NCBI RefSeq assembly: GCF_007713715.1
Contig: NZ_VJWX01000006.1
Coordinates: 1-50,070 of the forward strand
Reading direction: 5' to 3'
DNA length: 50,070 bases
Origin: Amycolatopsis rhizosphaerae
Lineage (GTDB): Bacteria; Actinomycetota; Actinomycetes; Mycobacteriales; Pseudonocardiaceae
Notes under the pieces: generated by a model
Databases searched by the model: none
What the model was told of the DNA's origin: nothing
The model's input: only the letters and a program-made list of their open reading frames with translations
Position numbers and translations under genes: made by a program
Shown here: positions 11,003 through 16,843 of the stretch, in pieces
How positions within the stretch are numbered: the stretch's first letter is position 1
How the letters are laid out: the number at the start of each line of letters is the position of its first letter

Positions 11003-11354
11003 TCATCCCAGCGGACGAAGTGGACCGAGGTTGTGATGAAGATGGGCCTCAAAGAGCCTGCACTTCCACGACTTGCGTCACGCCCGGAACATCTTTGCGG
11101 CCTCGACCAAGGACCTCATGGCCCGGATAGGGCACGACGACATGAGGGCCGCGCTGATCTACCAGCGAGCGACGAGTAACGCCGATGAGCGCATCGCCGA
11201 ACGGCTCTCCCAGCTCGTCGACGAGCACCGGGAGAGGGACGCCGAAGATCCAGACGAGGCGGCTCGGGCACTCCCGCCCTGGCGGGCTAATGGCCCAACT
11301 CAAGAGGGTATCTACCAAGCACGAAGGCCTAGGTCCGAAGTAGACACCTTCTGA
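11003..11354 (+). pseudogene. int: Tyrosine recombinase (integrase) C-terminal remnant, frameshifted
   Basis: From 11052 the frame encodes LHFHDLRHARNIFAA, LMARIGHDD and ALIYQRAT. These are the C-terminal catalytic HxxR, the LMxxxGH box and the nucleophile Tyr of actinobacterial phage/AICE integrases. An upstream fragment in another frame (KWTEVVMKMGL, from 11018) matches the preceding part of such proteins, so there is a frameshift near 11050. The N-terminal two thirds are missing, and the catalytic Arg of box I is absent, so it cannot be active. Its 3' end runs into the left copy of the 94-bp tRNA-linked repeat. Confidence 0.85.
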
Positions 11355-11414
11355 CCCAGGCCTTCGCCATGAGAGCGGATGACGGGAATTGAACCCGCGT
11401 TCTCAGCTTGGGAA
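11321..11414. repeat. Left copy of a 94-bp direct repeat containing the 3' half of tRNA-Gly (candidate attL)
   Basis: 86 of 94 positions match 16720-16813. It contains a degenerate copy of the tRNA terminator (11323-11365) and about 41 nt equal to the 3' half of tRNA-Gly from the discriminator base to the anticodon loop (11374-11414), then diverges completely. This is the expected product of site-specific integration into a tRNA gene. Confidence 0.85.
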
Positions 11415-11478
11415 TCAAGTGGATCACGCTGGAAAGTGGTCCTGACCTGCGGCTCGTGGTTCCCGGGGTATGCCGCTG

Positions 11479-11520
11479 TTGACCGTGGTTGACCCCCTCT
11501 AATGGCACGCGAATGGCACG
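11479..11520. repeat. Paired short direct repeats beside the att core
   Basis: TTGACC occurs at 11479-11484 and 11489-11494 (10-bp period), and AATGGCACG at 11501-11509 and 11512-11520 (11-bp period). Helically phased repeats 65-105 nt from the att core resemble integrase or excisionase arm-type sites; the role is inferred. Confidence 0.45.
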
Positions 11521-11555
11521 GCGTGGCGGGTTCCCACCTGCACGTTTCGGGCTGA

Positions 11556-11691
11556 GGTGATCTCCTCGCGGCGCGGGTTCATCCCTGCCGGGCCGGGTGG
11601 TGCCGGTCAAGGGTTTGCCGGAGGCCGCGAAGCGCCCTTGACCGGTGCCGCCCGGTCTGGCTGCCCTTGGGCGCGCCGCGAGGAGGTCACC
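11556..11691. repeat. 136-nt nested inverted repeat (possible plasmid origin hairpin)
   Basis: Outer arms 11556-11575 and 11672-11691 pair at 19 of 20 positions. Inner arms CCGGTCAAGGG (11603-11613) and CCCTTGACCGG (11635-11645) pair perfectly around a 21-nt loop. The segments between pair partly. A structure this long in a non-coding part of an integrative-element remnant suggests a single-strand or transfer origin; this is inference. Confidence 0.6.
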
Positions 11692-11811
11692 GGACCGGTC
11701 CTTCCCCTGATCTCCGAAGCGGTGTCGGGTCCAGGGCAGCGCCCTGGCCGCCGGAGGCCTCTGGGCTGCTGGGAGACCTGGTGGTGAGCCTGCTGGCGGT
11801 GCGATCATGGT

Positions 11812-12288
11812 GTGGTGCAGGTGGTTAGGTCGCCCGAGGTGGTGGAGGCGATGCGTCGTCTTGGGGCAGTGCTGAGTACTGACCTGCCTGATTGCGCTGC
11901 CACTTTGTTGGTCCATGGCTGGGACTCGCCGTCGTTACGGGAGTTGGCGGGGCATCCGCGTGATGACCCGTGGCGCGTTGACGAGCTTTGGGGGTTGACG
12001 TTGGTCGAGTTCGGCGTCGATTTCGTGCCTTCTCGGGCTGTCTGGCTTGGGGCGGCGGCGGGCTATGAGTTGCAGTTGTGGCGGGCGGGTGTTCAGGAGA
12101 CCTACGAGACGATGCATCGGCTCCTGGAGTTGACGGACTGGCTGCCTCCCGCGGAGTTGCCTGAGCTTCAACGCTTGATCGGTCTGGGCGACGAGCCGTC
12201 CGAGCGGCGGGGTAACCACCTGATCTACGTGGACGTTCAAGCGACGCTGGTTGCTCTGGAGCAACGGCTCAACCGCCGAGTGGGGTGA
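11812..12288 (+). CDS. Hypothetical protein (158 aa) in the island
   Basis: A soluble 158-aa protein of mixed alpha/beta character, rich in Trp (WDSPSLRELAG, DPWRVDELWGLTL, LWRAGVQETY). I do not recognise the family. Start is uncertain: GTG codons occur at 11812, 11815 and 11821, with no strong ribosome-binding site. Codon use is less GC3-biased than in chromosomal genes (many TTG and GGG codons). The next gene converges. Position inside the tRNA-Gly island makes it accessory cargo. Confidence 0.6.
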   Translation: MVQVVRSPEVVEAMRRLGAVLSTDLPDCAATLLVHGWDSPSLRELAGHPRDDPWRVDELWGLTLVEFGVDFVPSRAVWLGAAAGYELQLWRAGVQETYETMHRLLELTDWLPPAELPELQRLIGLGDEPSERRGNHLIYVDVQATLVALEQRLNRRVG

Positions 12289-12297
12289 GGTTCGGTT

Positions 12298-12525
12298 CTA
12301 CGGGGACAATGTGTGCGCTAGGTGGTGCATGGCGTTGACGAGATCGGCAGCGCCCTTGAGCTGGACGGACTGACCATCCATGCTCTTGAGCTGGTGAAAG
12401 ATCGCGAGCAGGGCTTGGACGGTGGCGATGTGGAGTGCGTTGCGTTCGTTCTCGATCGCTGCTTCAACGGTCTGTTGTGCGGCGCTTGCGTAGCCGTCGG
12501 CCAGAGTCTGGGGATCGGTCGCCAT
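12298..12525 (-). CDS. Small helical hypothetical protein (75 aa)
   Basis: 75 aa from ATG 12525, essentially one long amphipathic helix region (YASAAQQTVEAAIENERNAL, then IATVQALLAIFHQLKSMDG). No family recognised. It converges on the 158-aa gene with a 9-nt gap. An upstream in-frame start at 12543 is possible. Could be a small coiled-coil accessory protein of the element; real expression is unproven. Confidence 0.5.
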   Translation of the reverse strand: MATDPQTLADGYASAAQQTVEAAIENERNALHIATVQALLAIFHQLKSMDGQSVQLKGAADLVNAMHHLAHTLSP

Positions 12526-12873
12526 GCGCCGACCATGCCACAACTCGATGAATCAGCGACTCCGCCAATCCGGCGATCGCCGGGGTCGCCGGCCGGAGCG
12601 GAGCGGCAGGCCGAGCGGCCCGACGGCGGCGGCGCGCTTGCGCGCCGCCCTTGATCCCATAGAGCCAAATTCGGCAGAGAAGGTTGCGTAGGCCGTGTCG
12701 GCTGCAGAGCCGTCCGTGCTCAACTGCGGCCGACAGCCATGCAGCGGGGCTGAGATAGACCACCCATTCAGCCCTACTGTGTAACGATCTGTAGACGATG
12801 GGTAACACTAATGGGCTCCGAGTTGATATGAAACTTGTCGACCGTCTCGGTGATGGGCCGATGCACAGGGGGC
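12526..12873. other. Intergenic region with strong hairpin
   Basis: About 350 nt between divergent genes. The left part (12570-12650) is very GC-rich and holds a perfect hairpin. The right part (12770-12830) is AT-richer (GTAACGATCTGTAGACGA) and probably contains the promoter of the low-GC gene, though I cannot assign a clear -10. Confidence 0.45.
12628..12649. terminator. Perfect 10-bp hairpin GGCGGCGCGC / GCGCGCCGCC
   Basis: Two perfect arms around a TT loop, calculated to be very stable by composition alone. No T-run follows on either strand. It may be the relic terminator of a deleted plasmid gene that once lay to the left. Confidence 0.45.
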
Positions 12874-14253
12874 ATGGAGGGAAGCTTGGACGACGATCTC
12901 GTGGCCGTCGCAACTCGCTATTTTGCCGACGCTTGCGAGAAGAGCGGACATAAGCTCAGTCGAAGCAAAGGCCAAGAGTGCCAGTGCCGTGCTTTAGCCG
13001 ATAAGCTCGAGCGAGAGCACCGAGCGAGATTTGAAGCAGAAACTTATGACGTGAACAAGTTTCTGCTTCAAGCTTCGGCTGGCGGAGGTTTCCCTGCAGC
13101 AGATTGGCCAACTCCAGCTCTGATTCGATTGGTTGCGGATCACATCGTCGCGCCACCGTGGTTTAGCGGTTCCCCCAACCAGCGTATGGTCAAGCTAACA
13201 TCCGGACTTGCGCGAATTGGAGAACGGGGGCTTCCACCAGATGCCTTGGTTCGCGTCGGCTTGAACCGGCAAATACGACTTAGTATTACGTCTCTAGTTA
13301 TCGCCTTCTATCGTGAGAAATTTACCAAAGAAATACTTTCCAGACTTCCTCGCGACCTTCAAACATGGCTAGCCCTGGCCGAGACTTGCCTGGGCAAGCT
13401 GACTACCGCAGAGAATCTCGATGACAGCACCCGGATGCTAACTATTATTCCCGCCGTTAAGCACGGTATATTTGCAAAAAAGCTACAAGAATGGCTCGAG
13501 CGTGCCAGCATGCAAGACGTCATTGCATGGAGATATAAGGCGCCACCTCATGATGGACTCGCAGAGGAAGACATCAACATACAAGGGGGTCACGAGGCGA
13601 TTCATTGGGTCATGGACAGGTTTTCTTTTACGCATTACAACGAGTGGTACAGAACGTCACTTTATTGGGAACTTAGATTCGCCAGCAATCCGGAAGCGAC
13701 AGCGAACGAAGCTGGCCTCCCGTTGTCCATGCTAAAACAACGCCCGTCGCATACGGGTTTACTTGTGGAATCAATCGTCTCACGCGCATCTTACGCTCTT
13801 GAGCAGGAGGCGCTAATTGGAGACATAACACACGGCGAACTCCATTCGCATATACTCCTCCTGCTCGACCGCGGCTTCGTCAACCAAGCCATTGACGTCC
13901 TTAGCGCCGCATTAAAGAAGCACCCAAACAATGTTCTCATACGTTCCATGCTGAGCTTCTGCCTGACGCCGTCAAGTCCAATGAAAGCTCTTGAAGAAAT
14001 CGATAAATGCACAGAAGATCCCGACGTGCCGGCTGAACTTTTGGCAATCAACAAGATCGCCGCTTTATGGCGTTCGGGCAATAAAGAGGACGCCAAGAAG
14101 ATTGCGAACAGCAAGTTTTCCTTCAAAGAAGATGTCTTCTACATTCTATGGCGACCAGAAGATTTTGCTTCCGCATCCAATTCTGCTTGTTTCAAGGTTA
14201 AAAGGTATCGACCGAAAGACTGGATATCTGAAGCTTCTCGACTCTTGAACTGA
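12874..14253 (+). CDS. Low-GC orphan protein, about 459 aa, helical with TPR-like C-terminal part
   Basis: I do not recognise this protein. Composition is strikingly AT-rich for the window, with codons such as ATA, TTT and AAA frequent, so the gene was acquired from a different source. No signal peptide or membrane helices. The N-terminal part has a small Cys/His-containing segment (ACEKSGHKL, QECQCRALADKL). The middle is helical. The C-terminal third (LLLLDRGFVNQAIDVLSAAL, ALKKHPNNVLIRSML, then LAINKIAALWRSGNKEDAKK) reads like tetratricopeptide-type helical hairpins. The start is uncertain: ATG 12874 or TTG 12886 (preceded by GGAGGG), with ATG 12853 possible. It converges on the toxin gene with a 7-nt gap. 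A defence or phage-related role would fit the setting but is not shown. Confidence 0.7.
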   Translation: MEGSLDDDLVAVATRYFADACEKSGHKLSRSKGQECQCRALADKLEREHRARFEAETYDVNKFLLQASAGGGFPAADWPTPALIRLVADHIVAPPWFSGSPNQRMVKLTSGLARIGERGLPPDALVRVGLNRQIRLSITSLVIAFYREKFTKEILSRLPRDLQTWLALAETCLGKLTTAENLDDSTRMLTIIPAVKHGIFAKKLQEWLERASMQDVIAWRYKAPPHDGLAEEDINIQGGHEAIHWVMDRFSFTHYNEWYRTSLYWELRFASNPEATANEAGLPLSMLKQRPSHTGLLVESIVSRASYALEQEALIGDITHGELHSHILLLLDRGFVNQAIDVLSAALKKHPNNVLIRSMLSFCLTPSSPMKALEEIDKCTEDPDVPAELLAINKIAALWRSGNKEDAKKIANSKFSFKEDVFYILWRPEDFASASNSACFKVKRYRPKDWISEASRLLN

Positions 14254-14260
14254 GTTTCTG

Positions 14261-14836
14261 TCACAATTGCTGTATAGCCGAGGGCGTCTGAGCGGCATCA
14301 GCCTGAGTCATGGCCGCCTCGATATGATGGATCGGTATCATCAAGTGCAGTGGGTCCGTCGGCGACTGAAAAAGCTCAGCGTGGTGCATATAGAAAGATC
14401 TCGCAGCAGCATCCCGTGCGTGGATTAGAAAAGCACGAACACCGACGGACTTCGAGAGCATGACAGCGCGCCGCAGGGCATCATTAAACAGCGCGGATCC
14501 GATCTTGCGATCTTGATATTGCCAGTCGACTGCCAGACGAGCAAGCAGAATACAAGAAACCTCAGTGGGAGGAGCACCTCCGGCCACTTCACTTGGTACG
14601 TTTTGCTTACTTACTCCAGCAACAGTAATAGCATAGTAGCCGACAACTCTTCTATCCTCTGTAGCTGTCACATAAGTTACAGCGTTGTTTGCGCGTTGAT
14701 TAACCATGGCATACTTTGTGAGCCATTCGTCAAGCTCAAATGCGCCACTTTGGAACCCGTTGACACTGTCCTCTTTTTCAAGCTTTCTCGGATGGCATAA
14801 CTTCTGCCCCTCCGAAGTGCTTTCATTTTCAGTCAT
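14261..14836 (-). CDS. tacT-like: GNAT toxin, TacT/AtaT-like (type II toxin-antitoxin)
   Basis: 191 aa. The signature LDEWLTKYAMVNQRANNAVTYV, then ILLARLAVD, and the end RSFYMHHAELFQSPTDPLHLMIPI are those of TacT-type acetyltransferase toxins, which acetylate the amino acid on charged tRNA and stop translation. The candidate catalytic Tyr is in SFYMHH. Unusual point: the acetyl-CoA loop, normally QGRGLG or similar, reads QDRKIG, losing two glycines, so activity may be altered. Overlaps the antitoxin gene by 8 nt, as in coupled TA operons. Confidence 0.9.
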   Translation of the reverse strand: MTENESTSEGQKLCHPRKLEKEDSVNGFQSGAFELDEWLTKYAMVNQRANNAVTYVTATEDRRVVGYYAITVAGVSKQNVPSEVAGGAPPTEVSCILLARLAVDWQYQDRKIGSALFNDALRRAVMLSKSVGVRAFLIHARDAAARSFYMHHAELFQSPTDPLHLMIPIHHIEAAMTQADAAQTPSAIQQL

Positions 14837-15131
14837 CGTGCTCCGTAAATGGGCTAGCCTCGGACAGCAGTTTGGCCAACTTAGGCATGTCTCGGACTGG
14901 CGTCTCTAGCAGACGTTGGAATTCTTGCCACTTCTCGTCGTCAAGGACAAACCAACGTCGGTCTGTAAGCACACGTTCAGCTTGAGTCACGGCCGAATCG
15001 AGGATGAAGTCGGTCAATGACCGGTCCGTCGCTGCGGCAGCCTGACGAAGCAAGGACTCTTGACGACTGGTGGCCCGCAAGTTGATCCTCCCGTCCCGTG
15101 GTGCACGTTGAGGAGTTGTCTCCGATGACAT
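14829..15131 (-). CDS. tacA-like: DUF1778 antitoxin, TacA-like
   Basis: 100 aa. The N-terminal ribbon-helix-helix is RINLRATSRQESLLRQAAAA with TDRSLTDFILDSAV. The C-terminal toxin-neutralising segment WFVLDDEKWQEFQRLLETP is classic DUF1778. It should bind its own promoter and block the GNAT toxin encoded immediately downstream. ATG 15131 has AAGGGAAG upstream. The N-terminal RHH and C-terminal tail are both intact, so the pair looks functional. Confidence 0.92.
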   Translation of the reverse strand: MSSETTPQRAPRDGRINLRATSRQESLLRQAAAATDRSLTDFILDSAVTQAERVLTDRRWFVLDDEKWQEFQRLLETPVRDMPKLAKLLSEASPFTEHDD

Positions 15132-15306: not shown

Positions 15307-15987
15307 TCAAGAGCACGAGTCAACAAGGTCAGCTATAGCGTCAGTGATGGCGTCAGGCTGCTGAGTGGCCATCCTCACCCGCTTGCCAACCTTGTTGGCG
15401 TACCCGATGCAAAGAACGCCAGCCGTGCGCGAAGCTCGGATGTCGGAGAGAGAGTCTCCAACGAAGACAGTCCTTGCTGGCTCGCTCTGGATGGACTGCA
15501 CCGCCTGTCTTAGTAGATGCGGACTGGGCTTGAGCAGTGACGCATCAGGGCTCATCCGAGCTGAGATGTGATCAACACTTGGCCGAAGCCCATAGAGGTC
15601 AAGGTAGGCGCTGATAGCTGCGGCACTGTTGTTGCTGACGATGGCTAGTGGCCGTGCGGATTCATGCCACGCCTGGATGAGCTCGTGTGCTCCAGGGGTT
15701 GGCGTGGCGGTGGGGATGGCTTCGACTTCGTGGGCGGTGAAGGCGGCTTCGACGTAGCGGGCTTCGTCTTCGCCGAGGGTGGCGGCGTAGCGGAAGACGT
15801 CGAAGGGGTCTTTGGTGGTGGCGACGTGTTCGGGGAGGTTGGTGTGCCCGCCGTCAGCGAGAACGCCGCGGAGTTGGTCGGCAACGACATGGTCGGGGAT
15901 TCCGGCGAAGATGGAGCAGATGGGGCCGTCGAAGTCGAGGAGGAGTGCGCGGGCTTGGGCGAGGAGTTCAGCGGCGGTGGTGGTCAT
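15307..15987 (-). CDS. HAD family hydrolase
   Basis: 226 aa haloacid-dehalogenase-superfamily phosphatase. Motif I is LLLDFDGPICS, motif II is IVSNNS, the motif III Lys is in SLLKPSPHLL, and motif IV is FVGDSLSDIRAS. A cap domain lies between motifs I and II. The substrate is unknown; HAD genes paired with a GntR regulator are common in actinomycete integrative elements. Its ATG overlaps the GntR stop codon by 4 nt (ATGA), so the two are translationally coupled. Codon style changes abruptly near 15705: the N-terminal half uses nearly only C-ending codons, the C-terminal half does not. Confidence 0.9.
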   Translation of the reverse strand: MTTTAAELLAQARALLLDFDGPICSIFAGIPDHVVADQLRGVLADGGHTNLPEHVATTKDPFDVFRYAATLGEDEARYVEAAFTAHEVEAIPTATPTPGAHELIQAWHESARPLAIVSNNSAAAISAYLDLYGLRPSVDHISARMSPDASLLKPSPHLLRQAVQSIQSEPARTVFVGDSLSDIRASRTAGVLCIGYANKVGKRVRMATQQPDAITDAIADLVDSCS

Positions 15988-16688
15988 CGTTGGTAGTCCT
16001 GGGCAACGGTGGTCCAGAGGCTTTCGAACCAGGTGCGGGCTTGGTCGACGTATTGGCTGCCGATGGAGGTGTCGTCGTCGGTGGTGGAGTGGTGGAAGAG
16101 GATGGCGTCTTTGCCCATGAGGTCGTAGATGGCTTGGGTTTCGCCGTCGTAGGTGATGACGTGTTCGCGGACGGAGTAGAAGCCGAAGAAGGCGTCTTCA
16201 TTGTTGATCAGGTAGAGCTTGAGCATCGGTGCCGCTGGATGCACGCGGACTTGCGCGCTGACCTCGTTGACCAGGCCCAGTTCGCCGAGTTCGGTGACGG
16301 AGTCGACGATGGCCAGGGTGTGATGGCGCATGATCTCCTCGGCTCGCTTGCGGAAGGTGGGGCTGTCGGCGTGCTCGTTGACGGTGCAGGGGATCGCCCA
16401 GGGCTGCGCGGGGTCGGACAGGAGTAGCCGCACGCTGATCGATTCGGGGCGTAGCCGGCCGATGCGGATCTTGTCCAGGGGCTCGGCGATGATGCCGTGC
16501 AGGGTCTCGCCGGAGAACCCGGCAAAGTCGATCCTGACGTGCTGGTCCTCGAACGCGCGCTCAATGTAGGGGCGCAGGCCAACGGGGCGTTCGGTGCGCT
16601 CTCGGACGAAGACGCCACTACCCTGCCGGGACACGATCAGGCCCTCCTCGCGCAGCTCGCGGAGGGCGTTCTGCACATGTTGTCGGGA
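15984..16688 (-). pseudogene. GntR-type regulator, 5'-truncated close to the right att repeat
   Basis: The frame encodes SRQHVQNALRELREEG, then IVSRQGSGVFVRERTERP, the second half of a GntR winged helix, and a long C-terminal domain (IDFAGFSGETLHG, PLDKIRIGRL) typical of the GntR proteins of actinomycete integrative elements. The first winged-helix helices (about 40-45 residues) are absent; homology begins around 16688, and the att repeat starts at 16720. No good start codon exists at the breakpoint, so it is probably inactive. It is coupled to the HAD gene. Codon style changes at about 16200, matching the switch in the HAD gene. Confidence 0.8.
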
Positions 16689-16719
16689 TGCTGCCGCGCA
16701 GTGGCTTGATCCAGCGACG

Positions 16720-16813
16720 ACGAAGGCCCAGGTCCGAAGTAGACACCTTCCGACCTGGGCCTTCACCACAAGAGCGGATGACGGGAATCGAACCCGCGTT
16801 CTCAGCTTGGGAA
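16720..16813. repeat. Right copy of the 94-bp repeat (candidate attR, within tRNA-Gly and its terminator)
   Basis: Matches 11321-11414 at 86 of 94 positions. It covers the tRNA-Gly 3' half through the anticodon loop and the downstream terminator. The identity ends at 16813, after which the intact 5' half of the tRNA follows, so this is the junction that rebuilds a functional tRNA. Confidence 0.85.
16722..16764 (-). terminator. Terminator hairpin of tRNA-Gly
   Basis: Perfect 13-bp stem (GAAGGCCCAGGTC at 16722-16734 with GACCTGGGCCTTC at 16752-16764) and a 17-nt loop, just 3' of the tRNA on the minus strand. The left copy has stem mismatches, consistent with relaxed selection. Confidence 0.65.
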
Positions 16814-16843
16814 GCTGATGTTCTACCATTGAACTACATCCGC
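16773..16843 (-). tRNA. tRNA-Gly (anticodon CCC)
   Basis: The 71-nt minus-strand sequence folds into a complete cloverleaf. The acceptor stem is GCGGAUG/CAUCCGC, the D arm GUUC/GAAC, the anticodon stem UCAGC/GCUGA with loop UUCCCAA (anticodon CCC), and the T arm CGGGUUCGAUUCCCG. The discriminator base is U, usual for bacterial tRNA-Gly. CCA is not encoded. It serves as the integration site of the island to its left. Confidence 0.97.

Follow-up and report, generated by a model that had tools for sequence, protein, structure and literature searches.

The 50,070-nt stretch of Amycolatopsis rhizosphaerae DNA analysed here (the window) contains a 5.4-kb remnant of an actinomycete integrative and conjugative element (AICE), bounded by 94-bp direct repeats at 11321-11414 and 16720-16813, which are 91% identical. 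The left att repeat holds the 3' part of a tRNA-Gly on the - strand, and the right one overlaps tRNA-Gly 16772-16843 (-). Between them lie two remnant genes of unknown kind (11812-12288, +; 12298-12543, -), followed by genes for a TPR protein (12835-14253, +), a GNAT/TacA1 pair (14261-14836 and 14829-15131, -), a HAD hydrolase (15307-15987, -) and a GntR-like protein (15993-16691, -). The GNAT acetyltransferase gene, sitting beside that of a TacA1-like antitoxin (14261-15131, -), likely forms a toxin-antitoxin pair with it inside the remnant. A sequence-only reading of this DNA had described an element remnant lacking rep and tra genes, and we likewise found no rep, tra or full int at 11.4-16.8 kb; what survives is the att repeats, a large hairpin, a nick-like site, cargo and the GntR-like gene. 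Left of the left att repeat, an open frame at 11073-11354 (+) contains an integrase C-terminal piece, detected at 11052-11156 by an integrase profile built here and giving no Pfam match; this frame probably belongs to a neighbouring (tandem) element.

The hairpin, a candidate single-strand (minus) origin, occupies 11556-11691 on the + strand, exactly where the sequence-only reading had placed a 136-nt nested structure. Its arms also pair as that reading proposed: 19/20 positions (95% complementary) between the outer 20-nt arms (11556-11575 / 11672-11691), and perfectly between the inner 11-nt arms CCGGTCAAGGG and CCCTTGACCGG (11603-11613 / 11635-11645). The inner arms form part of longer, 27-nt arms (11587-11613 / 11635-11661), whose complementarity is 81% when wobbles are left uncounted. 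Folded as RNA, the hairpin reaches -115 kcal/mol (z -10.5), and folded as DNA, -59.7 kcal/mol (z -9.3), with 0/200 shuffles as good in either case; it is the most extreme fold among 4994 scanned 136-nt windows of the 50 kb. Folds, pair counts on 44 sequences and a covariance model describe a four-way junction, made of a 19-bp outer stem (11556-11574 / 11673-11691), a 27-bp inner stem with wobbles that takes up the 27-nt arms, and two 3-bp hairpins flanking the junction (11575-11585 and 11663-11672). Near the top of the inner stem, on its 3' side, a CTTG at 11637-11640 (+) is retained in nearly all copies (column counts 43, 44, 43 and 43 of 44), whereas its pairing partners vary. Mechanical ORFs run across the hairpin; what is conserved among relatives is the pairing.

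The hairpin is part of a non-coding module, ~200 nt long, that we found in AICEs of Amycolatopsis, Pseudonocardia and Prauserella and on one circular plasmid. In aligned copies, the conserved block opens ~6 nt ahead of the stem and runs to a small palindrome ~60 nt past it, with flanks that are mostly unrelated between copies apart from an att-side stretch common to some. In the window, alignments place the conserved tail of the module at 11692-11747 (+), with TGATCTCC at 11708-11715 and the small palindrome at 11731-11747. The octamer TGATCTCC of the 5' arm thus recurs behind the hairpin; it is kept in most copies and could pair with the 3' arm instead. Within the module, 95.5% of cells are paired in this alternative arrangement, and 3/8 pairs have changed on both sides. 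We rejected the idea that pairing of the 3' arm with the downstream repeat of the 5' arm forms a general switch: only 4/15 hairpins (the window, L179, L180 and L202) had at most 6/200 shuffles as good, and in the window the best partner of the 3' arm is not the octamer.

Surveying genomes revealed how widely the module is distributed. Counting the copy in the window, the source genome has four that are nearly full-length, plus two shorter pieces. At E <= 0.001, 28/61 sampled genomes gave some match, with all matches below 1e-20 falling within Amycolatopsis, and 25 matching stretches in named records divided into 15 from Pseudonocardia, 9 from Amycolatopsis and 1 from Prauserella. A covariance model matched 47/297 family genomes, representing 7/46 genera (E <= 1e-4), and 5/296 sampled class genomes, the window's own included (E <= 1e-3). 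Phage records gave no match to the hairpin module, and plasmids gave none when compared with a Pseudonocardia copy. The circular plasmid, from Prauserella coralliicola (L037:1-14853), carries one hairpin copy and encodes a VirD4/TraD-like protein; no integrase was found among 10 proteins tested, and no rep gene was recognised in these 10 with Pfam or in 6 of them with NCBIfam. In Pseudonocardia sp. ICBG1293 (L072:1372-2878), an insertion with an IS110-family transposase (PF01548, PF02371) splits the hairpin near its top. In L061:9233-9392 and L088 (Amycolatopsis acidicola), the hairpin centre appears rearranged, with pieces matching both strands.

We then assessed conservation of the pairing on an alignment of 44 distinct rows, obtained by removing 8 partial or rearranged entries from an initial 36 and adding 16 (L066 with better coordinates); eight named loci repeating loci already included, the split copy L072 and the rearranged L088 were kept out. 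Standard pairs make up 96.9% of pair cells, and 25/52 pairs show changes on both sides. Covariation was 0.231 compared with 0.114 in shuffles (0/500 as high), and sliding the partners gave at most 0.061. The sequence-only reading would have fallen had related elements lacked compensatory changes, and it withstands this comparison. Wobbles in the stems are distributed unevenly, with 234 G-T cells (26/52 pairs) versus 12 A-C cells (11/52 pairs) over the 44 rows; restricting the count to the 14 Pseudonocardia rows gives 63 versus 1. Were the fold needed on the other strand, this bias would be reversed, and a double-stranded site would have none, so the G-T excess favours the + strand. When letters were shuffled within columns, the G-T count was kept (234.5) and A-C cells rose to only 32.9; the strand argument therefore depends on how the columns are composed, and common descent links the cells. 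Within these limits, the + strand of the hairpin probably acts single-stranded, with a wobble bias that does not separate DNA from RNA.

Intact relatives carry an FtsK-like Tra (PF01580, FtsK/TraB), the rolling-circle initiator RepSA (PF20199) and a tyrosine integrase (PF00589), and in relatives such as L044, L049 and L056 these three lie between att sites, the arrangement that defines a RepSA-type AICE. We took the higher-scoring strand of each hairpin as its own, which possibly misassigns some because the hairpin is nearly symmetric. On this basis, rep lies on the hairpin's strand for 17/17 hairpins (16 loci) with a RepSA match on the fetched locus. FtsK shares the strand in 22/22 counts and integrase in 14/18; GntR shares it in 1/12 and is opposite in 11/12.

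A second conserved site accompanies the hairpin. In 14/15 of the lower-scoring-group RepSA elements compared, a small GC hairpin is followed by CTTGATC..AGAG..TTCGGCA, and in the window this site spans 12628-12676 (+), with the GC hairpin at 12628-12649 and CTTGATCCCATAGAGCCAAATTCGGCA at 12650-12676. It looks like a double-strand (plus) origin that RepSA would nick. CTTG before A is the nick motif of the pC194/phiX174 type. A survey of AICEs describes RepSA as nicking a dso and likens the RepSA nick site to that of pC194 (PMC3218068). We examined the placement of this site relative to 73 hairpins. These comprised 69 obtained from 130 model-match rows after setting aside other-strand mirror rows and six places (L039 at a contig start, L052:5998, L061, L063, L065 and L130:13636), plus four weak matches (L166-L169, 22.6-38.7 bits) added for their position; the variant second site of L047 does not enter the count. 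The site lies downstream on the same strand within 4.5 kb of 38/73 hairpins, at 215-4289 nt (median ~800), or of 34/69 without the four weak matches picked by position. These 38 hairpins correspond to 34 distinct sites because some loci hold two or three hairpins. No site was found upstream on the same strand or downstream on the other, one was found upstream on the other strand (L132), and 34/73 hairpins have none within 4.5 kb. In rolling-circle plasmids, the minus origin is usually found slightly 5' of the plus origin and thus becomes exposed only near completion of the leading strand, a placement that the order of hairpin and second site fits. Two loci are unusual in their arrangement. In L132:5959-6084, the sole hairpin with a nearby site on the other strand, the tail confirms the + strand and the other strand scores almost equally; in L144:6905-8241, three same-strand hairpin copies within 1.4 kb precede one plus-origin-like site.

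We infer, with somewhat better than even confidence, that the hairpin functions as the single-strand (minus, lagging-strand) origin of a RepSA-type AICE. An sso is a site that promotes second-strand synthesis in an orientation-specific manner (PMC4595007). Two features expected of one are present: a conserved secondary structure in a non-coding region, and a position on the nicked strand shortly 5' of the plus origin (here a candidate plus origin, in 38/39 hairpins with a site in reach). RepSA would nick the + strand farther downstream, at the double-strand origin (window position 12650), and leading-strand synthesis round the excised circle would displace the + strand, exposing last the hairpin just 5' of the nick. 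The displaced + strand, presumably acting as single-stranded DNA, would then fold into the four-way junction and recruit a host priming enzyme, so that the second strand would be made before re-integration. The sequence-only reading had suggested a replication or transfer origin. Its replication half gains support, position and polarity fitting the minus kind, and we found nothing pointing to transfer; AICEs are said to move as double-stranded DNA by means of one FtsK-like protein (PMC3218068).

In the main rival reading, a structured RNA is transcribed from the + strand and regulates how the element replicates, excises or transfers. The pairing and wobble evidence serves this reading equally, many tolerated G-U pairs are usual for RNA, and the strand is fixed relative to rep. 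However, the 5' edge of the module is sharp, with few bases before the stem and no sequence, promoter-like or otherwise, common to aligned copies upstream beyond the att-side stretch that some share. A scan of 11300-12900 limited to the sigma-70 consensus found no sigma-70-like promoter, and an Rfam scan of the window gave a tRNA as its sole match, with no RNA family at the hairpin above gathering score. A regulatory RNA would also leave the order relative to the nick-like site unexplained, and we consider it unlikely.

Another reading that we considered places the double-strand (plus) origin in the hairpin: the hairpin would be this origin, or a part of it that binds Rep or serves termination, and would be nicked at the CTTG at its top. 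This CTTG, on the inner stem's 3' side, hardly varies and suggested the idea; we put it second once a distinct CTTGATC site, conserved in sequence and accompanied by a small hairpin of its own, appeared downstream. An association with RepSA type lends it some weight. In 19 Amycolatopsis genomes, full-length RepSA matches comprise 22 at >=460 bits and 16 at 335-347 bits, leaving out three shorter fragments (153-266 bits) and one match at 62 bits. At the threshold used (E <= 1e-8), a hairpin lies <=13 kb upstream of RepSA in 10/16 lower-scoring versus 0/22 higher-scoring cases. This contrast is one of degree and partly bound to the threshold, as 4 of the 13 higher-scoring loci that we fetched (from the 22) have model hairpins at 47.6-62.3 bits. 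Six lower-scoring RepSA genes lack a strong hairpin: weak matches (22.6-38.7 bits) accompany four of them, on the rep strand, and the other two sit on 13-kb contigs of the window's own genome. Taken together, these points make a plus origin within the hairpin distinctly improbable.

Other RepSA elements carry large hairpins of their own. Eight of the 13 fetched higher-scoring loci have a different, ~143-nt hairpin (type A) shortly before a second hairpin ending in CTTGAACAAG or a close variant; one has the second hairpin only, and four have a third kind (type B). G-T outnumbers A-C in both types, by 13 to 3 (type A) and 18 to 7 (type B). The strand given by the model for type A is not fixed, running with rep in L176 and L178 and against it in L177 and L180. 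We also examined 20 RepSA loci from other families. In two of them, L188 and L189, a near-perfect hairpin (fold z ~ -8) lies upstream of rep, in L188 a few hundred bases before a CTTGAT site. Fold and model tests found no comparable hairpin in 15/20; one of these, L200, has a 43-nt match that scores the same on either strand. We thus rejected the idea that all RepSA elements have a giant hairpin, although big hairpins of other sequence are often present.

Proximity to att raises a further explanation, that the hairpin is an accessory of site-specific recombination adjoining attP in the circle. In several elements (L044, for example), it sits on the far side of att, a few hundred bases from where the integrase ends. 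We regard this role as very improbable: weak model matches on the rep strand lie between rep and int in L197, L199 and L202 of other families (7.7-9.5 kb past the plus-origin-like site) and likewise in L161, the circular plasmid copy comes without an integrase among the 10 proteins tested, and upstream flanks differ between copies. Least credible of all is a MITE-like palindrome spread by transposition, which would suit several sharp-edged copies per genome but which we rejected given the fixed strand relative to rep (17/17), the near-fixed order relative to the nick-like site and the compensatory changes.

We raise tentatively, as something we think rather doubtful, that the remnant, with its att repeats, nick-like site and candidate minus origin but no int, rep or tra, is a living satellite. 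Proteins that sister elements make in the same cell could excise, copy and move it, and the genome does have RepSA genes elsewhere, on contigs C79 and C82. Its minus origin would belong to a class of large folded origins keeping shape and place across unrelated sequences. Such a class would span the module, types A and B of the genus, and L188 and L189 of another family.

Our search of the open literature returned no paper on the hairpin structure; older pSAM2/pMEA300 replication papers lay outside its results, so any priority is provisional. Among known minus origins, the ssoA type is marked by the CS-6 hexamer TAGCGT, which occurs in 0/44 aligned rows. The covariance model gave no convincing match to pIJ101, only one of 35 nt at 16.5 bits. 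The hairpin may work like an sso, yet it belongs to neither sso sequence family tested (TAGCGT, pIJ101). Like the sso (sti) of Streptomyces plasmid pIJ101, it would be a minus origin in a replicon of actinomycetes that replicates by rolling circle and has a transfer gene of the TraB/FtsK type (PMC4170104), but host family and element type differ. The sso1 of ICEBs1, a rolling-circle integrative element of Bacillus subtilis, and the sso of pTA1060/pBAA1 resemble the module as non-coding, ~200-nt, stem-loop-rich sites, and function is said to depend on structure as much as on sequence (PMC4595007). For ICEBs1 sso1, three stem-loops, sequence relatives and orientation-specific activity are on record (PMC4595007), whereas the window hairpin is a candidate sso with one four-way junction, its sequence kinship checked by motif only. 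The closest elements are AICEs of the pSAM2/pMR2 type, which share the element type, RepSA, FtsK-like Tra, tyrosine integrase and tRNA att (PMC3218068). AICEs replicate by rolling circle, yet their survey speaks of a dso and names the plus origin only, the term sso being absent from its text (PMC3218068). Beside a candidate plus origin, a conserved, oriented and covarying structure offers a compact, testable origin pair for these AICEs, useful for Amycolatopsis and Pseudonocardia vectors and for asking how actinomycetes prime the second strand.
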